From assembly GCA_905221615.1 (NCBI GenBank), contig CAJNDT010004001.1:1582474-1646473 (forward strand): a DNA stretch of 64,000 nucleotides, read 5' to 3'. A model generated the notes under the pieces. That model saw only the letters and a program-made list of their open reading frames with translations. It did no database searches and was not told the DNA's origin. How positions within the stretch are numbered: position 1 is the first letter of the stretch; each line of letters begins with the position of its first letter. This stretch comes from Symbiodinium sp. CCMP2592 (Eukaryota; Sar; Dinophyceae; Suessiales; Symbiodiniaceae). Positions 1,379 through 57,406 of this stretch are shown here, piece by piece. The position numbers and the translations under genes are program-made.

Positions 1379-1648
1379 GATGAGAAGTGTATCATAGGGG
1401 CTTAATAAGGATTGCTAGACGGGCGCTTGGGGCTTAGGGCTGCGCGCCTCGGTATACTTCACGGGGATTCAGGGAGGAGGTGTTCAATTTTCTGGCCGTC
1501 TAGCGTGTCGGACTTACGGGTGGCTTCAAAAAGCGGAAATTGTACGGCTTCAAGATATTCACCCCAAGCCCCCAACCCTGAAACCCAAAAGCCCTGCACC
1601 CTGCAAGCCCTAAACTCCTAAGCAGGGTAGGGCTCTAGTGGTTTAATG
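1379..1648. other. No clear gene; telomere-like filler
   Basis: Unique sequence with scattered CCCTAAA/CCCTGAAACCC fragments around 1565-1620. A 69-codon open frame at 1412-1621 ends in telomere-derived Pro/Asn/Lys-rich residues and shows no recognisable domain. Confidence 0.4.
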
Positions 1649-1745
1649 TAGAAGCCTAAATGAATACCAATATTATTCGCAGGGTTCCTTATTCTATTTC
1701 TACTATCTAGGGGCCCAACTATTCTAACTATTAAGGCCCCTACAT
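1649..1745. mobile_element. Foldback element, family E
   Basis: Starts near TAGAAGCCTAAATGAATA and ends near TATTAAGGCCCCTACATA, with an internal GGGTTCCTTATT. Related copies lie at 7871-7971, 8572-8677, 25514-25600, 45267-45375, 49581-49717 and 52521-52628, with a part copy at 53591-53660. Ends are imperfect inverted repeats, no coding capacity. Confidence 0.55.
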
Positions 1746-1895
1746 AAAGCAGGGTTTCGGGTTCTGTTGGTTTAAGCAGTTTTCATTTAGAGTTTCAGGG
1801 TTTGGTTAGACTTCGAGTTCAGGCTCAGAAGGTTTCGGGCCTTCGGGATTTAGGGATTAGGGACACAAGGGACAAGCGCAGGACGCCCAAAGCCT

Positions 1896-2006
1896 CATAT
1901 GGGTGGTTGTCCAAGTTATGGTCCCTTCTGGGGTCCCCATTATACGACGGCACCTATTATTTGGGGTACCCAAAAAGGGACCCTAATTCTGACAACCACC
2001 CATATT
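1896..2006. mobile_element. Foldback MITE, family A copy 1
   Basis: About 110 bp with terminal inverted repeats TATGGGTGGTTGTC and GACAACCACCCATA. The second and further matching blocks (GGTCCC, GGGTACCC) also pair across the centre, so almost the whole element can fold back. TA at both outer ends suggests a TA target site, as in Tc1/mariner-derived Stowaway elements. Confidence 0.8.
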
Positions 2007-2039
2007 ATTGCAAAGGGTTTGGGGTTTACTGGTTACAGG

Positions 2040-2150
2040 TTGGGGCAGCTTACGGTTCTGCGGATTTGAAGGGGGGGGGGCTGTTTATGGGTTTCAGGCA
2101 GTTTCCAGAGCTGTTTGACAAAACCACGCGCGTTGGACATGATGAAGGTG
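2040..2150 (+). CDS. Possible short exon, unknown protein
   Basis: An open stretch reads FRQFPELFDKTTRVG and continues to a GT dinucleotide after GATGAAG near 2147, which would serve as a donor. Composition is protein-like and there is no repeat. There is no recognised domain and the upstream boundary is unclear (a run of ten G precedes it). Confidence 0.25.
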
Positions 2151-2159
2151 AGCTAAAAC

Positions 2160-3349
2160 TTAGATGCTGTGTTGCGACTGGACTCTGAGCAAGACACATG
2201 TGCGATACTTGTTTCCTTGAGCCCTTAGCCGAACCTCGTGATCCTAAGCCTTAAACCCTAAACAACCCGCAAGCCTTGAACGGCCACCTTCCGAAAACAA
2301 CCTTGACAATCTTCAGGCTTCGTGGTTTTGTAGACCGTGGGTCGCATGTTTTCTTTGACCTGCCTACTTGGAGGATCAAGGTAAGGTTATAAGTACCTTC
2401 ATTGGATCTACAATACGTAGCCATGCGTATAGCACAGCCATAGTTGCTATGTCCCATGATCCCTAACAGGACTCCTTTAAGTTACTTCGGCCCGGGATCC
2501 TTTCAGTATGTGTACACCTGAGGACTGCATGCATCACCCCGGGCGCGAGCAGTGGGGACGGCATCGCCGGGGATCAGAATGGGCCCCAGATGCTGGAAGG
2601 GTTCGGGGTGCAGCACCCCCCCCCCCAGAAAACACCCCCCCCATATATGTATGAGGGGTGGGTGCTCAAGCTTTGGAGATGGAAGTTCCTAGTTGCACGT
2701 CGGGCCTGTTTAAAAAATTGAGTATACTGTATACTATACTGAACCGTAGCAGTAGCATACTGACATAACCGGGCCTTTGGGACATCGTAAACTTTTGGTG
2801 AAGTGATAGTTTTTTGTTGTCGGCAGTAATAATAAGGGGTCAGAATAAGTACCAATGTTATTCCATAGGTTCCTCATGAAAATGTATACTACAGAGATTA
2901 TGTATATACCCCAAAGCTTTAAGAGCTCGACATGATGTCTGGACCCCGAGTCCTCCCGAACCTCAAGCTTCGAGTTTGAAGCCCAGAGAACCCTGAACCA
3001 GCCTTTCCTTTTTCATGGTTCTCCCAAAAGAAGAAACAGACCGGCTAGGAGACAGTTCCTACTAAGGGATATAGGTATAGGAATAGGGCTCTGTCTATTA
3101 TTTCTAGAAGGACAAGGGTACCCTGAACCCGAATCGACTGTGGCCCATTAAACTTCTTGGTTTCGGGCTCACGCGGCTTAGGGCCTAGGGTTTAAGGCTC
3201 TGACCCTTTAGGGTCATTGTAAAGGCCTGGGTATTTACCAATACTACCTCATAGGGTATTCTATTGTACCAAAATCAGAACTTGATCATGCAACATGCCG
3301 CCAACCTCAGGTCTAATCAGATGTGTCCCTTATGTTACCTTAAGGATCC
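2160..3349. other. Gene-poor stretch with decayed MITEs
   Basis: Contains a decayed family C element (about 2365-2462: CTACTTGGAGGATCAAGG on the left, CATGATCCC on the right), poly-C tracts near 2610-2642, telomere-like fragments and a part family E copy near 3225-3262. I see no convincing gene. Confidence 0.45.
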
Positions 3350-3460: not shown

Positions 3461-3889
3461 CAACATTGCCCGACAGTATTGCTGTCCTTGCTTCATGTTC
3501 TGGACCCTCACGGTTACACTCTCTATCCCCAAGCTGTGGAGACTGCATCGCTTGGACAGCGCTCCTGTTTGTGTTGCTTATCGTTTTTTGCTTGTTGCAC
3601 GGTGTCGAATTTTCCTGAGGTTGGCTCTGCACCATAAACACTAATCCCTAAGCCCTATATGTATTCAGAGCATGAACAAATGAAACCTTTATCCCAGAGG
3701 TGGTGACACGAAACATTGGCCCAGTGCGAACCAACATACCATTCATTAGGGTTACTGTCAGGGTTTAGGTTTAGGGCTTAGGGTTGACTATTCACTTCAG
3801 GTTTTAAACACTGTAACGAAACCTTCTGTTGTGACTCATCTGGCAGTTTATTTTGACCCGGGGTCCGATAGATGTTGGGGTAGCCCTAC

Positions 3890-4028
3890 AAGTGTCATAG
3901 GGATCCTTAGGGGTGTAGGGGGAGGGGGGGTAGCCTTAAGGCCCATAATAAGGACGAATAAGGCCTATTTAAGGAAATATAGTCCCCTACACCCCCCCTA
4001 CACCTCTAAGGATCCCTATGAAAGTGTG
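3890..4028. repeat. Long palindrome (foldback M)
   Basis: Left arm AGTGTCATAGGGATCCTT and right arm AAGGATCCCTATGAAAGT are inverted copies. The inner C- and G-rich runs (GTGTAGGGGG, CCCCCTACAC) also pair. I saw no second copy of it in this window. Confidence 0.7.
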
Positions 4029-4172
4029 CTGAAACTGCGAGGCCCATCGTCATGGCGGCGGGGGACCCAGCTGGATATGCTCAGCATGGACATGGGCTTG
4101 ACGGTCTTCGGGATGTGAGGCTTTGCTGAACACTGGTCTCCTTGAGCCCTGTACCCTGTAACTGTAAGCCAT

Positions 4173-4283
4173 CATATGGGTAGTTGTCAAGAACTATGGT
4201 CCCTTTTTGGGTACCCGAAATATTAGGTGCCGTACTATAATAGGGACCCAAAAAGGGACCATAGTTTTTGCAACCACCCATAT
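4173..4283. mobile_element. Foldback MITE, family A copy 3, opposite orientation
   Basis: Same termini TATGGGTAGTTGTC and CAACCACCCATA, but the centre reads ATTAGGTGCCGTACTATA, the reverse complement of copies 2 and 4. TA lies at both outer ends. Confidence 0.8.
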
Positions 4284-5030
4284 CCTCTTAGGTTAAAAGC
4301 AGGACCCAAGTGAGTCGGAGAGTGTTTATGAATCCCTGTTGTGGGGTTTTGCAAGCAAGACTTACACAGGTATCACACGTATTTTTGCGAGGCTACGCTT
4401 TTGCCACGCCAGGACCCAAAGTCTCAACTCTTCAATAAGTGATTTTGCACCCCAAGAACAGGGCTTAAACCTAACGTCCAGAAGCCTGCCTCCCGTCAGA
4501 TCCAACACAAGACGCTCCCGATTGCGGCGGTGCAATTTCACCCGGAGTGCCGGCCTCAAGACAGGGTTTAAGCTTTGGCTTAGGGCTTAGGGTTCACTTG
4601 GATCTCAAACAGCATGTAGAAGAATAGCCCTTGTGGAGTGCTGGGCTAATATTCTAACTGCTTTTGAGGTTTAGGGTTAAGGACTTAATCTTAAAATAGT
4701 GGGTTATGACCCCTTGATTAGAGGGTATAACCTGGGTATAACCCTTAAAAGCGGTAGGTTTTTGGATCCCCAGGTAAGGCTTAGGATTAGGAGCTTAGCT
4801 CGATATTCAACCTGACCCGAAGCCTCCTGGACTTGGACTTCGGCCCGAATGGAGTGTCCTGATGTCCTAGTCATCCAAGTCGCGATTCTGTTTTCATGGT
4901 TTCATGCTGGTCACGATTCTTTTCTAAGGGTTTCATCCTAGTCGCGATTCTGTTTCTAGGGTTTAGAACTCTTGTTTAGGGTTTCGGATTTAGGGTTTTG
5001 GGCCCTCCCAATGCAAGACAGTTTTCAGAA

Positions 5031-9093: not shown

Positions 9094-9246
9094 TAAAGGT
9101 CATGTCAGTGGGTCCTGTCGTACCACGCATGTCGGACATCTTCATCTCTTCGCACCTCTTTGAAACCCTATACTCCTCCCCAAACCGAAGCCTGTAGCCC
9201 TGGGGGCACCTGAAGATAACAGTCTTTCAGACCACCATGATCGCAG

Positions 9247-9498
9247 ATGAGAACCCGTTACGACCGTAGAAGCATTGTCCGAAAACTACAGCAAACATAC
9301 AGGCCTCGTTCACTCACCAGGAAACGTCCACATGAACCTTACTACCACCCCACTATATCCAGTGTTCAGACGTTAGCAAGCCGCCATGAAGACACGCAGA
9401 AGTCTGGTTGTTTCGAGTCTTGGGATGACAACAGGGCTGTGTCTTGCCTTATCGTGAAAAGGTACGCCTTGAAGCTACCCCTTAAAGGACCCTCATAG
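9247..9498 (+). CDS. Possible exon, unknown protein
   Basis: An 83-codon open frame. Its end (ASRHEDTQKSGCFESWDDN and on) has a balanced composition; the start is Arg-rich. It ends in the repeated CCCTTAAAGGACC module. No domain is recognised, and a single real exon may cover only the second half. Confidence 0.28.
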   Translation: MRTRYDRRSIVRKLQQTYRPRSLTRKRPHEPYYHPTISSVQTLASRHEDTQKSGCFESWDDNRAVSCLIVKRYALKLPLKGPS

Positions 9499-10576
9499 GT
9501 ACCCTTTAAAGGTACCCTCAGACCCTTATGGATCCTATTAAAGGTGTGATAGCCCATAACTGCAAGTCGTGGAGCTCGCCTGGACCTGCCTGTACAGCTC
9601 GAATCGTTACAGAAAAGGATGTTGCACCAGTGCTTACGGGCTTAAGGTTTAGTCAAAAAGGGGGCACCTCAGTCCGCGCTGAAAAAGGGTTTAGGGTTAA
9701 AAGCAGAAGGACGAATTACTAGGAACAACTCTTGTAGGATCCTTATGGTAATGTGAGTATCGCCTCACCCCAGAATCCTAGTCTACTCACCAAAGCTCCG
9801 ATGGGGGTTCAGGGCTGTGCGGTTTTACAGTTTGTGGTTTTGTGGTTTGGGGTGTAAACGAGCTTGAACTTCAAGTTGACAGCTAAATCGCACACCACAA
9901 TCCCAAGACGACGGGTCGTCGGAGACTCCACTATCCCTTAATGAAGGAATGTACCTGAAATTCTAGAGGATCCCTAGTATGATGGCTCCTAAACCGCGCA
10001 CCCCAAGCACTCAAAGCGGGATGCATTTCGGGTGGAGGGCCTAGTCATGGGGATTGTGAAAGCTTGGCGATTAGCTGCCCCGTTCCTCCAGGACCCCTGC
10101 GCACTGTTTCAATACTTGTTCTAGGACGATTGTGTAATGTAGCTTAGTTTGAGCCCATAGGGTCCAAGTACTCCCTATTGTAGGACTTCAGGGCCTTTTT
10201 AGGTACCAAAAACTGAAAACTAAGGGCTGCTTGGACCCTTAGGGGAGTAATTCGGTGCAGTACTATAACCTGCAATAGCCGGATTCTAGCTATGAACCCT
10301 AATGTGGAATATTTGGGCGCACTGCACCAAACCAGTATGTTTTGCAGTTCAAGGTTCAAGGTATGTAGACCCTAAACCCTCTCTGTCGGCTTGCACATGC
10401 AGGGGTTCTTTGCTGAGCAGGTGGCTTCTAATTGCTGCGGTCTTGTGGTCATGCCGCCATGCCAACCTGCCGTCATTTGAAGGTATATATGCCTGTATAC
10501 CTTCGTTGGCGAGAAAACTCAGCTACTGACGGTTGGTTATTCTCATTCTTCCCATCAAGCCGGTATTGCCAAAGTT

Positions 10577-10672
10577 ATGTCTACACAGCTGTTACTAGTG
10601 CTGCTGTTAACTGCAAGTGTCGTTCCTTACCCGGTGTGTGAAAAGCAGCAGGGTGCCGGGGGCTCATCATGA
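10577..10672 (+). CDS. Small ORF with hydrophobic signal-like start
   Basis: A 31-residue frame begins MSTQLLLVLLLTASVVPYPV, a short polar start, a Leu-rich core and a small-residue region typical of a secretory signal. It then stops after a Ser-rich tail at 10670-10672. It may be the first exon of a secreted protein or chance. The same frame is open 5' of the ATG from about 10526. Confidence 0.28.
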   Translation: MSTQLLLVLLLTASVVPYPVCEKQQGAGGSS

Positions 10673-10712
10673 ATAACCACCTACCTTAGACCTCAGACCC
10701 TAAACCCTAAGC

Positions 10713-10823
10713 TACAAACTGGTTGCTGCCGAGACCTCGGTCCCGTGGGACCTGACACAAGCTCTTGGCTCCAAGAAGGCGCTCATGCCCACGATGGTGC
10801 TCTCTATCCAAGTAGGACAGTAG
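10713..10823 (+). CDS. Exon-like segment, unknown protein
   Basis: Thirty-six open codons, YKLVAAETSVPWDLTQALG onward, ending in a TAG at 10821-10823. AG lies just upstream of it at 10710-10711 after CCCTAAACCCTA, so it begins right at telomere-like sequence. A palindromic GGTAACC-containing stretch follows at 10824-10905. Confidence 0.35.
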   Translation, partial: YKLVAAETSVPWDLTQALGSKKALMPTMVLSIQVGQ

Positions 10824-11387
10824 GTAACCTTTATCTGTAACCTTTTTGGGGTATATACTATACTCCCTATATGATCCCCGTTACTCCCCAAGGTTAACCT
10901 TCGTTCCCCAGGATACTCGACAAGTAGGCTATCATGCCAGTGGTCGGGTTCCGGGGGTTAAGTTCAGGGTAAGTTTAAGGCCTGGGGGACTGTGACTATG
11001 CACATCATCAGGCGAATTGCTGAACGAACACATAACACAGACCCCGAAGTGCTACAATAGCAAGCCCTTAGCTTTTTCCCGGAACAAGGCTTAGCCCCGA
11101 CAACCCTCCGCCAACTTCCTGCGGTACATGTTTCGGTTTGCGAGTCTTGGGTTCAGGTTTCTTCTGCGGGTTCAGGGTTTAGGGTTCAGTCGTCTTCGTG
11201 ATAAGACCGAAACATGATGGCCAGAAAGACGCACCCGGTCGGCGTCGTGATCCCAAAATCCCAAGCCCTACATCCCCAATCCCTTCACGTCAAAAGCCCT
11301 AGAGCCGGATCAACCACGCAGTAGCCATCCCGATCGCACAATTCTAAAATCCAAGATCCCAATCCCTGAACTTTAGCCTCCCTACAC

Positions 11388-11495
11388 CCTGAATGTCTCG
11401 ATGGAATGGAGCGAGTTCTATTCCTGGCCGACCGTTGACCTCAGAGTCTTCACCCATGAAGGACGCTGTGACAGCATGTGGATGAGTCACACTGA
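11388..11495. CDS. Coding-like segment, strand unclear
   Basis: Both strands are open and protein-like here. Minus reads THPHAVTASFMGEDSEVNG then PGIELAPFHRDIQ. Plus reads MEWSEFYSWPTVDLRVFTH. I slightly prefer minus on composition, but the + strand bias of the window argues the other way. Telomere-like fragments flank both sides. Confidence 0.3.
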
Positions 11496-11740
11496 ACCCT
11501 AAATCCCTGAACCCTATGAAACCCCTGGATGGGGAGAACCAGATCCTAGTGTACGTAGAATTTCGTGGTGTTGAAAACCTTCCACCACCACACAACTATT
11601 ACGAGCGCACGCAGTGGGTCTAAGAGGTATTTTTCGGATTGGGGGCTATACCTGGAACTATCGAAAAACACTTTTCTGTAGGTTCCCTATGCTTAAACTT
11701 TTATATTTCGTTTTTTCAATAAGAGCCGATAAAGACTAAA

Positions 11741-11950
11741 TAAGCAGCCAGGCAAGAGGTAGTTTCAGGTACTTGGAGGGTCGGGGGACTTAGTATATAA
11801 GCAGCCAGGCAAGAGGTAGTTTCAGGTACGTGGAGGGTCGGGGGACTTAGTAAGTAGGTTGTAAGTAGACTTAGAAGTACCCTAAAAGGGGTTATGGTAC
11901 TTATAAGTCCCTAAAATAACCAGTTACTAAGTCCCCCGACCCTCCAAGTA
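11741..11950. mobile_element. Foldback MITE, family C, with 57-bp duplication of its left side
   Basis: The element proper is 11827-11950, with ends TACGTGGAGGGTCGGGGG and CCCCCGACCCTCCAAGTA. The left flank plus left arm (from AAGCAGCCAGGCAAGAGG to GGGGGACTTAGTA) is present twice, 57 bases apart, at 11742 and 11799. The duplication includes host sequence and one TIR. Confidence 0.82.
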
Positions 11951-11996
11951 GGGTTTTGAAGGGGTTCTGCCAGACATGGGTCCCGTTAGGAGAGGC

Positions 11997-12185
11997 ACGG
12001 TTGATGATATAAATCCTGCACTGCCCATACTAAGGAAGGGATCTATAAGGGCACCTTTAAAGGGTTCCTTTAAGGGATCTATAGGGTTTTAGGGTTTAGG
12101 GTTTAGGGCCATACTAAGGAATATACCATAACTCCCACAGTCTAGGTCCTTAAGGTAATGCAGGGTTTGTATCATCAAGCGCAGC
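11997..12185. mobile_element. MITE family B copy 1, split by a telomere-repeat insertion
   Basis: Left part CACGGTTGATGATATAAAT to 12037. Right part from 12109 to about 12179, reading ATATACCATAACTCCCA and then TAATGCAGGGTTTG. Between them (12038-12108) lie 71 bases holding the GGGATCTATAAGG module and TTTTAGGGTTTAGGG. The 13-base CCATACTAAGGAA occurs on both sides (12025-12037 and 12109-12121), a direct repeat like a target-site duplication. Confidence 0.8.
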
Positions 12186-12369
12186 TGTCGCAGGCGCTTG
12201 ACGCTGACAGCTAAACCCTAAGCCTCACGCACGCAAGCTGAGGCTTAGGGTTTGGGGCCTGGGGCTTAGGGTATATAGGGTTTGAGTTTAGGGTCTCACC
12301 GTACGCATAAATTAGCACCAAATAACCGTCCTTTTTTCAGGGCTTATAAGTAATTATAAGGAAACCCCT

Positions 12370-12627
12370 ATGGGAAACCCACAAAAAGGCAGGATATCAA
12401 AGGTTCAAGTAATCGCTACAGGACGCCAGAAAACCTTTTTGCATCTTTTTGAACGCATGGCAACATCTCGAACATGCGACACCGTTTCCCCGGTCCTAAA
12501 TAATTTAAAGAAGGTTGTACGTGCTGAGGTTTCAAGCGGTTTGGGAGCTGCACAAATCCTCAATAGTTTATGGGCCCGGGATGACGACACAAGCTTCCCA
12601 CCCCAAGGCTGCAAGAGTCGAAGATAA
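12370..12627 (+). CDS. Possible coding segment, unknown protein
   Basis: 85 codons. The part FERMATSRTCDTVSPVLNN followed by LKKVVRAEVSSGLGAAQ is balanced and helix-like, with a basic C-terminus. It lies about 100 bases upstream of the spliced-leader sequence and so is unlikely to belong to the retrocopy. No domain is recognised. Confidence 0.33.
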   Translation: MGNPQKGRISKVQVIATGRQKTFLHLFERMATSRTCDTVSPVLNNLKKVVRAEVSSGLGAAQILNSLWARDDDTSFPPQGCKSRR

Positions 12628-12728
12628 GAGCTCTTATATAGCCCTAAACCCTAAACCTTAAGCCATAAACCCAAAACCGTAAGCCTTAAACCCGAAGCAC
12701 AAACCCCTACATCCCAAACAGTGAACCC

Positions 12729-12750
12729 TCCGTAGCCATTTTGGCTCAAG
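12729..12750 (+). other. Dinoflagellate spliced-leader (DinoSL) relic
   Basis: The 22 bases match the known dinoflagellate SL exactly: T, then CCGTAGCCATTTTGG, then CTCAAG. In living cells this sequence is trans-spliced to the 5' end of nuclear mRNAs. Here AAG is followed by GCCATG, not by the GT of an SL RNA gene. So it is best read as the 5' end of a mature mRNA that was copied back into the genome. It lies between telomere-like filler and the coding sequence at 12754-13379. Confidence 0.93.
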
Positions 12751-13379
12751 GCCATGTGGCTCGAGACTTCCAAGCTTTGTCTTGGGACGTTCTAGGTTGG
12801 TGACTTTTGTCATGAATCCGGTGCCGCTTCGAAAGCTCGCATCAAACATCGCTTATGCCCGACTCTGTTGCAACAAAGAGGGTCTCGTGAAGATTTCCTT
12901 GATGCTCTCGCAAGTCTTGCATGCTGTCCGGGAGGAGGTTCAACATCGAGAGGGTGCAATGACAACACAGGTGGAAGCGTGTACCCAAACTCTGGAGACC
13001 GGCACTCAGACTGAGACAATCCGATTTGGGGATGAGGACTACGCATCGTGTGGCAGCGAGGATGTCGAGCTCCATGGGGATGTTGCTGTCTCCGAGGAAG
13101 AGGACACACAGCAGCGAGCAACACCATTGCCGTCACAACCTCTAGGCAGCTCGAGTGAACAGAATTGGCCGATGAGCGATCAGCAGTGGGATTTCTTTTG
13201 TCAGAAAACAAGACTTGAGTGAACCATTGAGTGTGGCTGCGATGGATGATCTGCTTGGGAAGCATGAAGCGGCGAGTGAGTCCGAAGCGTCAGTTCTGGA
13301 TGACCAACAGTCCAAGTGTAAAGCTCTCATGGCACTGTTGTTGAACCGCCGGAAAGACTGTACAGGGGCTGTCACATGA
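12751..13379 (+). pseudogene. SL-tagged processed retrocopy, unknown acidic protein
   Basis: Directly after the SL relic, GCC-ATG starts at 12754 (MWLETSKLCLGTF), with a TAG at 12793-12795. The same frame then runs on (REDFLDALASLACC, about 12888-12930). Coding character then moves to the frame of 12782-13222: QVEACTQTLETGTQTE followed by Asp/Glu-rich sequence. At about 13200-13205 it moves again (SEPLSVAAMDDLLGKHEAAS) to a TGA at 13377-13379. No introns are apparent, as expected of a cDNA copy. Two frame changes and one stop suggest a decayed copy, though sequencing indels could contribute. A coding start at 12812 is also possible. No domain is recognised; the protein is acidic and Ser/Thr/Gln-rich. 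Confidence 0.6.
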
Positions 13380-13649
13380 CAACACTAGGGCGGGTGTGCT
13401 GGCATCAAAGAATGCTTGCTGGCGCGATTTGTGCATCGAGCATTATCCTGTCAATCTATTGTATCGTTTTGCTGATGGTTGTCAGTGCACAGATTGCCAA
13501 AATTAGTCCCGACTGCGAACCGAGAGACCTCATCTGCCGAGTCCGAGTGTGAGAGCGTAAACCCGAGACATCCTAATTTCATAAGTTTCCCGGAAGAAGC
13601 AGCCCGGGCCGATCTGCCACTTCCTGGGCTTTGGAGTACCATCCTTTAA
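13380..13649. other. Unassigned sequence after the retrocopy
   Basis: Probably the 3' UTR of the retrocopy plus older sequence. There is no poly-A tract, no clear frame and no repeat family. Confidence 0.35.
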
Positions 13650-13754
13650 TACGGTTGATGATATACATCCTGCATGACCCATAACAAGGAATATACCATA
13701 GTTCCCATAGTTCAGGGTCATTAAGGTAATGCAGGGTTTATATCATCAACCGTA
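13650..13754. mobile_element. MITE family B copy 2
   Basis: 105 bp, TIRs TACGGTTGATGATATA and TATATCATCAACCGTA, with the inner CCTGCAT and ATGCAGG pairing too. The two outer TA dinucleotides are consistent with a TA target-site duplication. Confidence 0.88.
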
Positions 13755-14690
13755 CTTTCTTGGGACCGGTTACTTAGAGGGGACAAATATGAGATAAAAG
13801 TATATGCCTTTTTTTCCTCGCTACTTCAGAGCCCAGATTCTCAATCCCAGGTCAGGACTACGCCGTGACTTGGCGCAACGGTTTGGCGTTTCAGGGCTTT
13901 TGGGACACTAACAGCCCAGCTGCAAAAAGGGCTTTGGGGTTTAGGGGTTTAGAGTTAGGGTTCAGAGGTTACTGTAGGGGTTAGCTTTGGAATGAGTTCC
14001 TGCGGATCTGCCATTGAACTCTAAACCACCCGTCCCTAGTTTGCAGCCGTTATCCAAGATTAAACAGATAGATCGACAGATCGACATTGAATATGGACTT
14101 CCTAAACCCTAGGGTACAGGGCCAGGGATCTGTTTAGTGTCCTCGAATGGACATCCCTACCCTAAGCCCGAAACCCTGGTAAAACCTGAGGAATCCTTAA
14201 ATCCCTACAATTCCCCAGTAGAGCGCTGTAAAGCCAAGCAAGAATCGTATGCCCCAAGTCTCAAGATCAAAGCTTGAGAAGCAGCGGAGTCGATGGCACT
14301 CGAGGGGTCAGGGGCTGAAGGTTCACGGGTTTAGCGTCGATCGTTTGCCGACTAAAAGCAGAAGCTGTCCGAATGTAATGTACGGTTTGGGTATTACAGA
14401 GGGTTGATCGATCTGTCTACCAGATTATTCCAACTATCTCTCTGAAGCGATGGTGACGGTGACGGTTGACGATGGCAAGCAAGGACACTGACAATCCTTT
14501 AGCAAACGAGCGATTGTGATTTTAGAAGTCACATGCTGCATGCAACGTGTTAGACATGCCCACGCAGCTTTTTCTATGTCTGGCAATGCCGTACAAGGGT
14601 GGCTCAACAGAAGAAGATTTCACCAAGAGTCAGTCATGGAGGCTTCTGTTGTGAGCTGCCCATTTTCCCTCAAACGCTAAGCCCTAAACT
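13755..14690. other. No supported gene
   Basis: Unique sequence with TTTAGGG-like patches near 13930-13965 and 14105-14180. No frame stands out on either strand. Confidence 0.4.
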
Positions 14691-14695
14691 GCGAG

Positions 14696-14976
14696 GTTCT
14701 GGATGACGTGAGGCACAATCACAGTCAGGAGGAATTTCTGCAAATTCCTGCCGGATGGGAGGTGGCACGATTTGAGGACATGTTTTGCTGGAAAGGGAAA
14801 CTCTTACCAGTCATTCCGACGCAGAGTTGATTTATGATTGCGTTTTAGGGTGTATGCATTCTAGCATGCTGCAGAGAGGATGCCGCTGACGCGCACGAAC
14901 TCATCACACACCACGAAGGCTTCAACTGCAACTTGCTGGTCACTCAGGACCCGGCACTTGCTGACTCTAAACCCGA
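14696..14976 (+). CDS. Two-exon fragment with a WEVA-type dinoflagellate module, GA-AG intron
   Basis: Exon 1 ends at 14776 and includes HNHSQEEFLQIPAGWEVA, finishing ARFE. Exon 2 starts at 14879 with DAADAHELITHHEGFNCN and LLVTQDPALADS. Removing 14777-14878 (102 nt, GACATG...CAGAGAG) joins them in phase 0 and removes a TGA at 14828. The joined block resembles a repeated module I recall from Symbiodinium proteins (a PxGWEVA motif followed by LLV), whose function I do not know. The GA donor is non-canonical in general but known in dinoflagellates. Beyond about 14970 the sequence becomes CCCTAAA-like, so the gene end is not visible. Confidence 0.5.
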
Positions 14977-15099
14977 TGCCCTAAACCTCAAACCCTAAAC
15001 CTGTTACTAATAACCTCGAAGGCCCGAAGCCTTAAACCCTCGTCGTCGCCACTACGAAGTTCAACCATGATACACCACAGCAAAGTCCTACAACAAAGT

Positions 15100-15100
15100 C

Positions 15101-15141
<41 letters not shown>

Positions 15142-15154
15142 GCTACTACTACTG

Positions 15155-15223
<69 letters not shown>

Positions 15224-15231
15224 GTTCAACT
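15100..15231. repeat. (CTA)n microsatellite
   Basis: About 130 bases of CTA triplets with rare CTG/CCA interruptions. The poly-Thr, poly-Val and poly-Tyr frames that cross it are by-products. Confidence 0.95.
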
Positions 15232-15339
15232 CTGATTCGACCCTTAGCTCGAACACGCCCAACCAAAGCCCCTTTACCCTACATCCCTACACCGCTGTAG
15301 AGCACTCAAGCCCTGAACCCTAAAGGCACGATCTGGAGG

Positions 15340-15388
15340 GCTGAGGGCGAGGATTTAGGGCTGAGGGTTTAGGGTTTAGGGTTTAGGG
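15340..15388. repeat. Interstitial telomere-like tract
   Basis: GGGCTGAGGGTTTAGGG leading into three TTTAGGG units, G-strand orientation (opposite to the left telomere). Confidence 0.75.
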
Positions 15389-15642
15389 CCTGAATTGAAT
15401 AAGTAACCATACCATCCTCGAGGTTTCCTTATTGATGCATATACGCGACACTGTATTCTGAATCTACTTATCTAGGCCGCTTTCCTGTGTGGTGGGTTTT
15501 AGTAAGGGCTTTTAAAAGGGTTCCCGTTGACGTAGTCCCGGAAGGTTTTCTGGATTTAAGTTTAGGGATGCAGGGTATAAGAGTTGAGGCTTGTGCTAAA
15601 CCTGAACGCTCAAGCCTGCGTGGTTTTCATTTGTTTGGTCTA

Positions 15643-15720
15643 CTCCTGCTACTGCTACTGCTTTTGCTACTGCTACTGCTACTGCTACTGCTACTGCTGC
15701 TGCTACTACTGCTACCACTA
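15643..15720. repeat. (CTG/CTA)n triplet microsatellite
   Basis: CTACTGCTACTGCTTTTG and on. It gives the Leu-rich and Tyr/Cys-rich open frames at 15487-15795; I do not call these as genes. Confidence 0.9.
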
Positions 15721-15952
15721 CGACGTTTGCTTAGGGTTCCATCTTTTCGAAAATTCTATAATCTACCCTTAACTCAAAGCACGTTTGATGATTAAGGCCT
15801 GTATAGTTCCGCTTGTGCACTTCCTGGGAGGATGCTGTCTTCAGAAGCAGCCGAGCTCTCCAGTGGAGAGAGGAAGATCAAGGGACCAAGCACCTCGGAA
15901 AAAATGCAGGTTTGGGTTAGGCCCATGTAGGCATTCGGGGTTTAGGATTCGT

Positions 15953-16060
15953 GACGGTAAGGTGATGATATACATCCTGCATGACCTTAATGACCCTAAA
16001 CTATTGGAATTATGGTATATTCCTTATTATGGGTAATGCAGGATTTATATCATCAACCGT
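15953..16060. mobile_element. MITE family B copy 3 (inverted centre)
   Basis: Left end ACGGTAAGGTGATGATATAC carries a small change in the TIR; right end ATATCATCAACCGTA is intact. The centre reads ACCCTAAACTATTGG, the reverse complement of copy 2. Confidence 0.8.
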
Positions 16061-16205
16061 ATGTGTGAGGAAGCCGCGAAATCGGTGGCAGCGGACCTGA
16101 ACTTGTAAGGTTCAACTAAGCAGTCCGGAGTTGGGGTAGTTTCCGGGGGGCGGCCTTTTAGATAGTGTTCATGTTGCCTCGGGGTTATTGTTTAGGGGGT
16201 TGGTG

Positions 16206-16549
16206 ATTCTGTTCAATTCTCAGAGGAGACAATACTCAGCAAACTTGACGGCGAAAGCAGCCGGTAGTCAGTAGCAAACCCTAAACCTCAAGTGTACGAC
16301 TGTGGCATGCACCTATTGTTTGTCAAACTTCATGGAGAAATGGAAGAGCAGAATGTTCCCGATTGCGCTGCTCCAACGAAGATTCGGCATGAATTAGCAC
16401 TATACCCGATCATGTGCAGAATTGGGGATGTGCGTTCGAGACATCCTGGCCATAGTTTGGGTTTAGGGAAATCATCAAAGACCCTATGTTCGCTTCAACC
16501 AGCTAAGCTGCAGCTTTATACAAAACTCACAGTCAGGTCTCAACCATAG
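16206..16549 (+). CDS. Two exon-like blocks, unknown protein
   Basis: Block one reads GDSVQFSEETILSKLDGESS and stops at 16265-16267. Block two, from about 16292, reads MHLLFVKLHGEMEEQNVPDC and on to IGDVRSRHPGH. CCCTAAACC-like filler lies between them. No domain is recognised and linking the two blocks is inference. Confidence 0.33.
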
Positions 16550-16668
16550 CCCGACAAGAGCCAGAAGCCCGATGTTTTTGGAGTTTATAGGGCTTTACTG
16601 GGTTAAGGGTTTGGGGTGTAAGGCGTTGCGATGATGGTGGCGGTCGAGGGGAGGAGGCTGATATTCCT

Positions 16669-16765
16669 AGGTAGTATAAGGGAGACCCCTTCAGGGACCC
16701 TACTTCAAGTTCTCTTAAAACGGACCATGCGGAATCTATATCCCCAAGGGTCCCGCTACTCCTAA
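16669..16765. mobile_element. Foldback element, family H copy 1
   Basis: GTAGTATAAGGGAGACCCC, then TTCTCTTAAAACGGA, then ATCTATATCCCCAA. The same order recurs at 17562-17675. The outer ends pair only partly. Confidence 0.55.
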
Positions 16766-16884
16766 CTCCTGTTTATGTGCCAAGAAGCCATTTGGATGTG
16801 ACTTTTATCATCACAACGACAGTATCTCACTAGCACAGCCCGAAAATGCTTCATAGCCACAGCACCAGCATCCTAATCATGAAG

Positions 16885-17124
16885 TTATACGGGCTGAAAG
16901 ACTGCCAGTACTATCCTCATATAATGCTTTTTCAACACACCCCGGTGGCTGCAGTCATCGTCTAGAGATGTTCGGGGGTTTGCATCTAAAATCGAGGTTT
17001 GCGGACGGTGACTTCTTGGTTTGGCACGGCCGGCACGGGGAGACCGTGATCCCGGACCACGACAGGACTCGGGCACGGTGAATTGCGAGGGTTTTGCACG
17101 GTTTGGGATCTGGCCGTGGTACAC
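16885..17124 (-). CDS. Possible coding segment on the minus strand
   Basis: 79 codons; the last part reads TSLDDDCSHRGVLKKHYMRI. The middle is Arg/Pro-rich. The plus strand is also partly open here (KLYGLKDCQYYPHIM), so the strand is uncertain and no domain is recognised. Confidence 0.22.
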   Translation of the reverse strand: MYHGQIPNRAKPSQFTVPESCRGPGSRSPRAGRAKPRSHRPQTSILDANPRTSLDDDCSHRGVLKKHYMRIVLAVFQPV

Positions 17125-17561
17125 ATATACACTGTCCTAGAATTCCTTTTTGACGTACTTTGGATTCAAGCACACTCTTGTACAAAAACGGTGCTTGAAT
17201 CAAACAAAGGACGCATCTGAGCTAAAGTTTAGCGTTTAGAGTTTCTAGCTTCTAGCCATCATTGCCGACAGCCTCTGGTGTGCTGTCTGCCTCAGGAGTG
17301 TGAGCATGTCCTCTTGCATTAGGTAGGGAGTCCAGGTGTGCAAAGCTAGAGAAGGGGGTGGCAAGGCTGAATTTTTACAGCTTCGAGATGTTATCCGCTC
17401 GAGCATAGTAAGTACATGGTATTGAGGTTTTGGGTTCAGGATGAGGCGCTGTGCTGAAATGTGTCCTACTTAGATGAGAACCTCCCAGGCTTACAGGGAG
17501 GTCACACGCAGAACATCAGCATCAATAGCCTCTTCAAGATCCTGCCTAAACCCATATGGGT

Positions 17562-17675
17562 AGTATTATCTGGGAGACCCCTTAAAGGGTACCCCTTCTG
17601 AACCCTTCTTCTGGCTCTCTTAAAAGGAGCCTTATTGAGAGGGTCTATATCCCCCAAAATTCCCCTAATCCGAAC
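17562..17675. mobile_element. Foldback element, family H copy 2
   Basis: GTAGTATTATCTGGGAGACC then CTCTCTTAAAAGGAGCC then GGGTCTATATCCCCC. About 110 bp and better preserved than the copy at 16.7 kb. Confidence 0.55.
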
Positions 17676-17903
17676 TCCCACCTAAAAACCCGGTTTAATA
17701 GGCGTAGAACTACGGACAAGTCGAAAGGCATCAAACCCTATGTAAACCCCAAACCCAGACATAACCTTCTATCCTGACAATATAGGAACATAAATGGTTT
17801 TTCAATATTAGTCCTTGGGGCACTTTGTTACGAGCATACTTGACTATACCGCCCAAGACCTCTTCTATCTACTAAGGCCCCTATCCCCTAGCCTAAACTC
17901 CTT

Positions 17904-18035
17904 CTGGAGGGTCGGGGGACTTAGTAACTGGTTATTTTTCGGGACATATAAGTACCATAACCCCAATTAGGGTCCCTTTTAGGGTACTTATAAGTCTACT
18001 TACTACCTACTTACTAAGTCCCCCGACCCTCCAAG
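17904..18035. mobile_element. Foldback MITE, family C
   Basis: Arms CTGGAGGGTCGGGGGACTTA and TAAGTCCCCCGACCCTCCAA pair almost perfectly. They share the GGGTCGGGGG variant only with the 11.8-kb copy. Confidence 0.85.
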
Positions 18036-18050
18036 TGGGCCCCAGCCTTC

Positions 18051-18182
18051 AAGCCTGGCAACCAGGCTACAGGGTCTCTGGACTCGTATCCTGCTGCAAC
18101 GGCCGAGTCTGGTTCTTCAGCTGGACATCAGATGCTCAGACACTGCGACCTGGCCCCGTGTTCCTTGGGGTTTTTGTGTGAG
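18051..18182 (+). CDS. Exon-like segment, unknown protein
   Basis: Open frame KPGNQATGSLDSYPAATAES then GSSAGHQMLRHCDLAPC, starting 15 bases after the family C element. It ends in TTTAGGG-like sequence. Ser/Ala/Gly-rich with no recognised domain. Confidence 0.35.
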
Positions 18183-18649
18183 GGTTTCGGGTTAAGGGTT
18201 AGGCGTCAGGAGTCGAACGGTTTGTTGGCAGGCTTCCCTTGCGTTTTTAACATCTTTCGTATACGTCGTATATGTAGACCTTTGGCATTACCGGCTTCAG
18301 AAGGTCATATATACGGGTGTTGATATTTGTTCATCGACCTCAAAGGCCCGGGGTGGGTAGAAAAATCAAGGTAGGGGGCTCGCAGCAATGTCAAGAGGCA
18401 CCCCAAGCCGCAGCCATAAACCGTATGAGTTAGGGTTCTTACAGGGGTTCCAGGTTCCGGTGTTGGCATTTATGGAGCCATGTCTCTTCTGTCCTCCACC
18501 GCAGCTGTCGTAACCCCTACTGTAGACTGCAGGAGCTTTGAGTGAGTGACTCGGTGCGATCTCCAGGGACCGCTTCTAGGTACGGATAGTACGGGGCGAA
18601 CTAATACAGGCGCATGTCGGTTGGTAGTTAATAGTAGTGCATCATGGTC

Positions 18650-18651
18650 CG

Positions 18652-18685
<34 letters not shown>

Positions 18686-18775
18686 CATGTAACTATGTCC
18701 GTATGTATATATATATACACTTATATATCTACATTAATTTGTTCATGCATGCATTTTCACTGCTTACCTATATAT
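18650..18775. repeat. (TA)n and TATG/CATA microsatellites
   Basis: Several runs of alternating TA with CATA interruptions. The Tyr/Ile-rich frames on both strands come from this. Confidence 0.92.
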
Positions 18776-18959
18776 GCAGCAGTTGTATTAGCCGATTAAC
18801 CCGAGCCCTGTCTAAAGTATTCAAAACATTTCATATCACCGCTGCCGTGGTACGCCGTAGAAGCCCCTACTTACGGTTTACTCACCAAGGCGGCACAAAC
18901 ATGACGAAGCCTCTGTCTACTAGCCGGGGACCGGCATGTCATCCATGAGCCTATGTCCC

Positions 18960-19073
18960 TACTTAGAGGATCACGGGACTTAGCAACTAGGGTCATAAGT
19001 AAGGTAACTATACTTATAACCCCAATTAAGGTACTTATAACCTCACTTACTAAGTCCCACGATCCTTTAAGTA
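18960..19073. mobile_element. Foldback MITE, family C
   Basis: Ends TACTTAGAGGATCACGGGAC and GTCCCACGATCCTTTAAGTA. The centre contains AGGTAACTATACTTATAAC. TA at both outer edges. It ends 12 bases before the ubiquitin-like exon at 19085. Confidence 0.87.
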
Positions 19074-19084
19074 CCATCGTTCAG

Positions 19085-19285
19085 GCGGTGGAGGTGGAGA
19101 TTCTCTCTCTGGCTGGCGATTGCTTGGGCAAGTTCGTCCTGGAGCCTGCTTCCACCGTTCGTGATTTGCGGGAAGTGGTGGGCAGCCAGAACGAGAGGCA
19201 TCGGGACGCCAAGTACGTTCTACCGGGAGGAATGCGGGTTTGTGAGGATGACGAAGAGTTGTCCAGACTTCAACCTGCTCCCTAA
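19085..19285 (+). CDS. Ubiquitin-like domain exon
   Basis: After CAG at 19082-19084 the frame reads VEVEILSLAGDCLGKFVLEP, then STVRDLREVVG, then VLPGGMRVCEDDEELSRL, with a TAA at 19283-19285. The two strands, a turn, the xxVRDLxxxV helix start and a late GxxxxDDExL turn follow the beta-grasp ubiquitin-like fold. This fold often heads ankyrin-repeat proteins in Symbiodiniaceae. There is no in-frame ATG of its own after the MITE, so an upstream exon, or loss of the start by the insertion, is likely. It is a separate gene or duplicate from the 21.5-24.0 kb gene, since its sequence differs. Confidence 0.6.
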   Translation, partial: AVEVEILSLAGDCLGKFVLEPASTVRDLREVVGSQNERHRDAKYVLPGGMRVCEDDEELSRLQPAP

Positions 19286-20056: not shown

Positions 20057-20161
20057 TACGGTTGATGACATAAATTCTGCATTACCCATGATAAGGAATA
20101 TGCCATAATTCCCATAGTTTAGGGTCCTTAAGGTAATGCAGGATTTATATCATCAACCGTA
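20057..20161. mobile_element. MITE family B copy 4
   Basis: 105 bp, TACGGTTGATGACATAAAT to ATTTATATCATCAACCGTA. It lies only 18 bases after the family C copy, so two unrelated families sit side by side. Confidence 0.88.
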
Positions 20162-21541: not shown

Positions 21542-23288
21542 ATGCTTCGCGTTCGCAGTGGAACTTCTGGCGATGAGGTCACTGTCATCCCTGTGAAGGA
21601 ATTGAAGACGGCCCCTCGGGCCGAATGTAAAGGAAAACCTATTTAAGAAGCCATGGTCTTATAACCCCAAGTTAATCAGTAGGATTCGTATCAAGTCCTA
21701 TACTACCATAACTTTAAACGCCCTAACATGGAAGTTATCGGGGCCCTACCAACAGGTAGGTCTGGTCCTTCGTAATGGTTTGAATGCAGGCGGCTGTAGA
21801 TAGTTGTTGCAGCCGAAAGGGTTCAGGGCTTGCAAATGGTTTTTTGGAGTTTCAAAATCATAAGGTTATATAGATTCCTTACGATTCGAGGTTTCCTGTA
21901 GGACATCTTCACAACAATCAGCCGATGTTTCACGTGCCGAAGATTAGGACGGCTACTGAGAGTCCCATATAATGTCTAGGGTACGTTTTGGATTGGGGTG
22001 TTGGGTGGAGTCTTGTAGTTTATGAGAATTACAATTTGTTTCACTTCTAACGAAATTGCTGGATCCAAAGGTCATTCACCACGGTTGATGATAAAAAACC
22101 TTCATTACCTCAATGGCCCTAAACTATGGGGATTATGGTATATTTATGCTGGGGTATGCAGGATTTTTATCATCAACAGTATCACTGCGAAGCATGTCGG
22201 TCAATATTCCTGTCTTGTGAGCGCTGTGCAACGGCCTACGATGCACGACGAAGCCCTAACCCCTGCACCACAATCTTAACCTCAAAACCTCTTGAAACCC
22301 AAGACAGCCAACAACCATCAAGCACCCAATGCCCTGAATCTATCAGTTAGACTCTAAAATCCTCAAGCCTAAAACTCTAAACCCCGTAAGCACCATACCC
22401 AAAAACCCTAAAGCTCTGAAATCATTAAACCCGGAGCCCTTGTTAAGTCGACCTATGCGAAAAGGCGAGGCAGTATTCTGGAGAAGGTTTGGGGTTTACC
22501 TTTAGGCTCCATTGTAGTTCCTTGTTTTGGTTTAACCAATTATATATTAAGGATCCTAAAAGGTAACCCCAAAAAGGAACTACAATGGAGACTAAAGCTA
22601 GAGTCTCGGTTCTTCAATGTTCGGGGCCCATCGGGGGTTTAGGGGTGACGGTTTTGACGGTGCAGTGCCCTTCACGGAAGTGGATGGGGTCTTACGGCTC
22701 AGGGACGAAAGGAGCCTATGGGGTTTAAGGCGTAGGGTTGGTCCTGATTGAGTTACCCCCAGACTCTGAAGCCTGAAGAGCCGGGTATATTGGCAGTGGT
22801 CAGTCTTTCTCTCTCCCTGGTTCTTAGCAGGGAATGGGGGAATGGATCCGTAAGATACTAAAAGCCGCTTCAAAGCCCAAGTGACTTTGCAAGTAAGATT
22901 ATGATTAGGATAGCCCCACTTAGGGGACTCATATCCCCAATTACAACCCTACTTACTCAGTCCCCTGAGCCCTAAGCCCTAAACAGCTCTTCTCTTCGAA
23001 GATCCCAGGTCGGAACACTGAAGGAGCGCTTACGCGAGGTATGCGGCGTGCCCCGCTTCAGGCAGACAAAACTACGCTCGAGTGACGGAACCCTTGTGGA
23101 TTGTAGAGCTCTCTAGCCTATAAAACCCCCAACTCAGCTGGAAAACCCTTCAACCCTTCAACCCAACACAGTTAGCCGCCCTATAAACCCCCAATTAAGC
23201 CCTAAACCCCGAAACCCTTAAAACCCTTAAGCCCAACACAGTTAGCCCTTGGGTACTGCCCCCACTCAGTAACAGTTGGATAATAGTC

Positions 23289-51894: not shown

Positions 51895-51995
51895 TACATA
51901 TGTATAAATCCTGCAATACCTCAAGGACCCTAAACTATACGAAATGTTGTATGTTTCTTGATAGGGGTTATGCAGGATTTACATCATCAACCGTA
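51804..51995. mobile_element. MITE family B copy 6 with (TA)n growth inside
   Basis: Same TIRs (TACGGTTGATGATGATG and ACATCATCAACCGTA), but 192 bp long because a (TA)n/TATG tract (51825-51903) has grown at the AT part of the left arm. The second half (AATCCTGCAATACC to TGCAGGATTTACATC) is normal. Confidence 0.87.
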
Positions 51996-55371: not shown

Positions 55372-55457
55372 TACGACTGTTGATGATATAAATCCTGCAT
55401 GACTTAAGGAGTATATTTCTTGATATGGGCAATGCAGGATTGACACCATCAACCGTA
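55372..55457. mobile_element. MITE family B copy 7 (shortened)
   Basis: TACGACTGTTGATGATATAA to ACACCATCAACCGTA, 86 bp; about 20 central bases are missing. Confidence 0.75.
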
Positions 55458-57312: not shown

Positions 57313-57406
57313 GTATATATCCTGCATTACCCATAATAAGGAATATACCATAATTCCCATAGTTTTGGGCCCGTAAGGTATTGCAGGGCTTATATCATCA
57401 ACCGTA
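57263..57406. mobile_element. MITE family B copy 8 with (TA)n growth
   Basis: TACGGTTGATGATGATATAT to TATATCATCAACCGTA; 144 bp, with about 40 bases of TA/TATG inserted in the same arm position as the 51.8-kb copy. Confidence 0.87.

Follow-up and report, generated by a model that had tools for sequence, protein, structure and literature searches.

The window analysed here (the whole stretch of 64 kb, C4001:1582474-1646473, in an assembly of 1.098 Gb and 5383 contigs) contains, at 12729, an intact dinoflagellate spliced leader (DinoSL, hereafter SL) that joins a degenerate telomere-like array to a coding-like body. The best reading, to which a probability of about 0.6 is given, is that a low-copy gene (or element) gave rise to an SL-tagged retrocopy, which LINE-type machinery with a preference for telomere-like repeats put in place. 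The retrocopy status of the locus, which a sequence-only reading had claimed, is well supported: the SL is intact and has no donor site, at sister loci elsewhere in the genome, bodies that are nearly identical from the SL onward have different upstream flanks, and a degraded SL relic precedes a copy of the 5′ piece on another contig (C602). As to the integrator, non-LTR machinery is suggested by the oriented CCCTAAA and (AG)n junctions and by the SL-headed LINE that lies at a target of this kind.

The leader, TCCGTAGCCATTTTGGCTCAAG, occupies 12729-12750 on the forward strand and matches DinoSL at 22/22 positions (0 mismatches), which bears out the full 22-nt SL of the sequence-only reading; this rests on the exact match in the window and on the genome-wide motif count. 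It is the sole SL match in the window at up to 3 mismatches, a level at which 0/100 dinucleotide-shuffled windows had a match. Directly 3′ of it stands the GCCATG that had been described (AAGGCC at the junction), with no GT donor, and Rfam at gathering thresholds gave no match in the whole window. Since the SL runs into GCCATG without a GT donor, it is not that of an SL RNA gene, a candidate rejected on the absent donor and the Rfam result together; what stands here is a genomic DinoSL directly upstream of a body. No second, partial SL lies upstream at up to 3 mismatches in the window, and a second relic was rejected as a candidate, as the window has 2 matches (up to 3 mismatches) to a 15-nt relic, one of which is the SL itself, where shuffles lead one to expect 2.96.

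The body is coding-like, as had been claimed: the longest open frame in 12751-13379 has 156 codons, and 13 of 2000 single-base shuffles of this stretch had one equally long. Of the stop and two frame changes ascribed to it, one frame change is left. The ATG at 12754, after GCC, runs into a TAG at 12793 (by eye); the ATG at 12812, common to the window and a relative on contig C5088, opens 136 codons to 13222 and leaves a single frame change near 13206, where C5088 carries 2 more nt than the window copy. Thus, on the forward strand, the SL is followed by a 5′ untranslated piece (12751-12811), the start of which (to about 12802) is common to C602:191327-191387; by an ORF of 136 aa (12812-13222); by the continuation of the frame according to C5088 (13176-13379, a 67-aa open frame ending with TGA at 13377-13379); and by a 3′ stretch (13380-13445) partly common to C5088 and C2, in which the 3′ limit of the copy is undefined. 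Pfam gave sub-threshold matches only, with no family above the cut-off for the body or its 136-aa ORF; a PDB search with the body gave nothing usable; and the protein had no relative among viral contigs (viral_contigs).

A DNA search of the genome with the body, which gives lower bounds, found at least 6 matches: the locus itself, contig C3475, two pieces on C5088, one on C602 and one on C2. C3475 (22,628 bp; G000:C3475) is 99.84% identical to window positions 9233-19144 over the 9.9 kb compared, and is therefore a redundant contig or a very recent duplicate. C5088 covers 12792-12907 and 13142-13441, without the SL and the stretch after it, and C2 covers 13332-13398. C602 covers 12742-12802; at the place of the SL it has TGTGGCTCACG, which agrees with 9/11 of the last SL letters (by eye) and is preceded by CCTAAACCCTGGC, so that a short SL relic stands before a second copy of the 5′ piece of the window copy. 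The intron-bearing parent that a retrocopy leads one to look for did not turn up in this search: besides the duplicate contig there were three partial relatives, none of them evidently an intron-bearing parent. In passages of PMC6050394, only 6.4% and 9.8% of retrogenes were paired with parents in two species. The matches to C602 and C5088 break near 12795, which suggested an exon junction there, but splice sites read by eye gave it no support. No A-tail is seen in the sequence of the window copy, nor any convincing target-site duplication; the one candidate, the 8-mer AGTGAACC at +488, lies within the body and was rejected, as the homology with C5088 spans it. The A-tail and the target-site duplication are common signs of a retrogene, although not part of its definition in the passages of PMC6050394.

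The position in the contig does not support a place near a telomere, as had been supposed: 218 kb separate the window from the nearer end of its contig of 1,864,821 bp, the ends of which may themselves not be telomeres, and its many TTTAGGG/CCCTAAA tracts are thus interstitial in this assembly. The SL nevertheless abuts a telomere-like array, a degenerate (CCCTAAA)n tract at 12640-12728 on the forward strand that ends at the 5′ end of the SL, in the orientation common at other SL junctions. Alignment to (CCCTAAA)n gave a score of 30 over the last 60 nt upstream of the SL and 51 over the last 90 nt; among 3197 window positions, 1.3% score at least 30, as do 0.61% of control 60-mers. A test for exact CCCTAAA-type words finds none in the 40 nt next to the SL and is positive once 100 nt are taken; CCCTAAA-type words are present in 9.7% of window 40-mers. 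The window locus is therefore placed in the CCCTAAA class by its alignment score; as such tracts abound in the window, however, coincidence at this one locus is only moderately improbable (1.3%). On the 3′ side of the copy there is no CCCTAAA array, the 3′ limit being undefined, and a telomere-like tract further downstream (about 13933-13975) is inverted.

Other repeats lie in the window. A MITE-like family consists of inverted-repeat elements of about 105 bp, 68-91% identical to the copy at 13650-13754, with relatives at 20057-20161, 15963-16061, 57314-57406, 22081-22181, 51903-51995, 55376-55457 and 12000-12181. The last of these holds a 71-bp insert with TTTAGGG repeats (12038-12108, boundaries by eye), flanked by a 13-bp duplication, CCATACTAAGGAA; judging by the sequence, the telomere-like repeats of this insert look like an inserted mobile piece. 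The long ORFs between 57902 and 64000 match a CCCH zinc finger and an integrase core, each at a score slightly under the cut-off, and this region is probably an LTR-type retroelement running off the window.

The junction at 12729 can be compared with SL junctions throughout the genome, in which the exact SL 21-mer occurs in 429 copies (217 and 212 by strand; reversed-pattern control, 0). Because so many exact copies exist, the intactness of the SL in the window requires no special selection or conversion, which had been put forward as one of two explanations of it. CCCTAAA stands 0-12 nt upstream of 68/429 SLs, counted as distinct sites after 10 nested matches were taken off the 78 listed, and TTTAGGG in the same place upstream of 8/429 (binomial p 5.6e-13). 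Seventy of the 429 loci, the first in contig order, were read together with the 1.5 kb to either side. Within 40 nt upstream of the SL, CCCTAAA-type words are present at 18/70 loci (control, 2.2% of 18292 windows from the same loci) and (AG)n at 15/70 (control, 0.38%); the opposite orientations are found at 1/70 and 0/70, respectively. The 40 nt downstream of the 70 SLs contain neither CCCTAAA-type words nor (AG)n, and the 50 nt downstream contain (AG)n at 2/70 and CCCTAAA at 0. A second test, the alignment score over 60 nt upstream, gave 16/70 for CCCTAAA (control, 2.25%), 1/70 for TTTAGGG (2.41%), 19/70 for (AG)n (3.77%) and 3/70 for (CT)n (2.67%). Among those of the 68 sites with junctions in pure phase, 24/35 are at CCCTAAA|CCG or CCCTAAAC|CCG, i.e., with an overlap of CC. 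GT follows the SL directly at 0/70 loci, and a second SL-like motif lies within 60 nt downstream at 13/70. Thus, the 5′ ends of SLs are oriented junctions with a preference for particular repeats, which is new here; that a few kinds of repeat, mostly in one orientation, precede many SLs hints at the integrating machinery. None of the four repeat types tested was found upstream at 36/70 loci, so other routes exist.

Several SL-headed bodies occur as multicopy families, near-identical from the SL on and behind different flanks. Four loci (L013, L040, L041, L081) have bodies 99.7-100% identical over about 1.5 kb, three of them behind CCCTAAA; the exception, L081, is among the 36 loci without a tested repeat. 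L031 and L035 are 99.5% identical, and L061, L078 and L079 are 95-99% identical over about 1.1 kb. (L069 and L070 share their flank too, and may be one duplicated locus.) A more diverged DNA family has eight members (L012, L023, L044, L048, L049, L050, L071, L077), of which all except L023 stand behind (AG)n. When the longest sense ORFs were clustered as proteins (single linkage, E 1e-3, some links being weak), one cluster of 11 had 9 members behind CCCTAAA and one of 7 had all 7 behind (AG)n. The SL-headed unit of L013 runs on into an ORF of 1173 aa with a reverse transcriptase (RVT_1, E 4.2e-21) and an APE-type endonuclease (Exo_endo_phos, E 7.2e-05, just below the curated cut-off), so that one copy in these families has both enzymes of a LINE. 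Stretches 24-25% identical to this ORF are present at L067 and L023, and an RT-type ORF was seen nowhere else in the 70 loci. No RT was found in the copies behind (AG)n, and the 5 kb downstream of one of them (L012) contain no ORF of 200 aa; L023, the DNA relative that is not behind (AG)n, has the RT-ORF-like stretch. The CCCTAAA-class bodies outside the main protein cluster had no Pfam family (E 0.01) in the longest sense ORF in 9/9 cases.

At the majority of the 70 loci, the sequence read does not reach the 3′ end, or the end was not recognised. Five short insertions carry either a target-site duplication or an array at both ends: L061 is flanked on each side by AGATTAGGTA and has a tail of CAAAG repeats, L029 has an 11-nt duplication (GTTCGTATACA), L028 has a telomere-like array on both sides, and L078 and L079 have (AG)n on both sides. 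Such flanks indicate that the units went into a repeat or site already present, and not that the repeats were added later. The duplication test itself, on 71 loci, gave a match of at least 8 nt at 5/71, with the matches at L056 and the window, 8-mers only, counted as chance.

The likely course of events at 12729 would begin with a low-copy gene whose mature mRNA, trans-spliced to the SL, was reverse-transcribed as far as the 5′ end; the cDNA would have been integrated behind an interstitial telomere-like (CCCTAAA)n tract, and the copy would afterwards have decayed, with one 2-nt frame change and a blurred 3′ end. The mechanism was probably target-primed reverse transcription by LINE-type machinery, which would nick telomere-like or (AG)n DNA and prime there. 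LINE mRNAs would themselves receive the SL; the LINE-like units begin with an SL, and hence their transcripts are probably SL-capped. Families would favour different simple repeats, one CCCTAAA arrays and another (AG)n, and host mRNAs, such as that at 12729, may have been carried in trans to the same targets. The body in the window may well have been a host gene, although no parent gene was found. At the window locus itself, the absence of a convincing duplication, an A-tail and a CCCTAAA array or other target-site sign at the 3′ end counts against the LINE reading. On a more general scale, it is conceivable, if rather less than an even bet, that retrogenes and SL-capped LINEs share an integration machinery with a family-specific simple-repeat target, be it telomere-like CCCTAAA, (AG)n or another, so that the 5′ repeat records the family that wrote the copy, and that leader relics count the rounds of retroposition, because the trans-spliced leader is copied in each round.

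That the body belongs to a low-copy SL-headed retroelement, or to its 5′ part, and is thus the copy of a transposon and not a retrogene, is rather unlikely. Several bodies among the 70 SL loci do form multicopy SL-headed families, the fragmentary relatives on C5088, C602 and C2 are such as an old element would leave, and the lack of a Pfam family above the cut-off would suit an element. However, no match (E 1e-3) links the window ORF to any longest sense ORF at the other 70 loci, and its DNA relatives besides the duplicate contig, at least three, are all partial. Between the window and C5088, 60 hand-chosen aligned codons, a small sample, gave dN 0.16 and dS 0.34, which fits a once-constrained gene, and an element too.

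It is quite improbable that an SL-tagged cDNA was captured by telomerase or end joining, as a patch on a broken end or within a broken telomere-like tract, in which case the CCCTAAA beside the SL was there already or was added, without a targeted LINE endonuclease. TTTAGGG added to the 3′ end of a cDNA would give sense-strand CCCTAAA just upstream of the SL, as observed, and the favoured CC overlap at the pure-phase junctions agrees with capture; however, the (AG)n at 15/70 loci, the arrays or duplications on both sides at L028, L061, L078 and L079, and the excess of one protein cluster at CCCTAAA (9/11) are left unexplained. Far less probable still is an SL RNA gene at 12729, or a leader retained by selection as a promoter: the SL is intact, and a promoter role of retroposed DinoSLs has been proposed in passages of PMC6050394, but the leader lacks GT and an Rfam match, and intactness is common, some of the 429 exact copies heading repeats.

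DinoSL-tagged retrogenes, or recycled processed cDNAs, are known (Slamovits and Keeling 2008 and Song 2017, as cited in passages of PMC6050394), and they and their tandem relics are well described (passages of PMC6050394, PMC12014239, PMC7245778 and PMC11453091). The putative full DinoSLs in two Symbiodinium genomes number 496 and 244, some of them in SL gene arrays (PMC8045281, in part), and nearby DinoSLs have been taken as a sign of retroposed viral elements, for which LINEs were suggested (PMC10235124, in part). The window copy resembles the DinoSL-tagged retrogenes in the passages of PMC6050394 and PMC12014239 in that the genomic DNA just before a coding body holds an SL or its relic, and the 13/70 loci with a second motif resemble them in the tandem SL relics left by repeated rounds; it differs in that no parent has been identified. 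The oriented repeat target at the SL junction, found here, is not mentioned in those passages, and titles and the openings of abstracts, with subscription journals largely outside this body of text, contain no statement of a telomere-repeat or (AG)n target at DinoSL junctions. Telomere-repeat-specific LINEs of the silkworm and microsatellite-targeting elements are, by analogy of target, the nearest mechanistic parallels in the passages available. SART1 of the silkworm belongs to the non-LTR retrotransposons that insert in telomeric repeats (passages of PMC7265360 and PMC4700185); the likeness drawn here is one of target. The arrays in this genome are interstitial and in many cases degenerate, a trans-spliced leader heads the unit, and the same target is used by other bodies. 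Similarly, non-LTR retrotransposons that target microsatellites insert into a simple repeat (passages of PMC4640811), here (AG)n, although the (AG)n families here are known from 5′ ends or short units. The type of retroelement behind dinoflagellate retrogenes was stated to be unknown, with a leaning towards LTR elements, in passages of PMC6050394; which type makes these very numerous retrogenes is now a question directly testable from assemblies.

Some side observations concern other sequences associated with SLs. At L042, an SL standing behind TTTAGGG, the rare orientation, lies shortly upstream of a 493-aa ORF (1542-3020, forward strand) with a C-5 cytosine DNA methylase domain (E 1.6e-12). 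At L082, an ORF at 3611-4375 (forward strand), downstream of the LINE endonuclease-RT ORF, has a weak Tet_JBP match (16.4 bits, cut-off 34.9). Two more SL-headed protein clusters (L031/L035/L036/L056/L060 and L025/L030/L033) have neither CCCTAAA nor (AG)n in the 40 nt before the SL; L031 and L025, the two members scanned, gave no Pfam family above the cut-off, and by eye we take the proteins of both clusters to resemble tyrosine recombinases. Among viral contigs (viral_contigs), the only match to the exact SL is IMGVR_UViG_3300045993_001077, with two copies on the reverse strand (2746-2766 and 2893-2913), one of them just upstream of a 254-aa ORF that is richer in GC than the otherwise AT-rich contig, which also encodes a family-41 glycosyltransferase. 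Possibly, this contig is from a dinoflagellate virus with an SL-tagged host cDNA, or it is a misfiled host contig.
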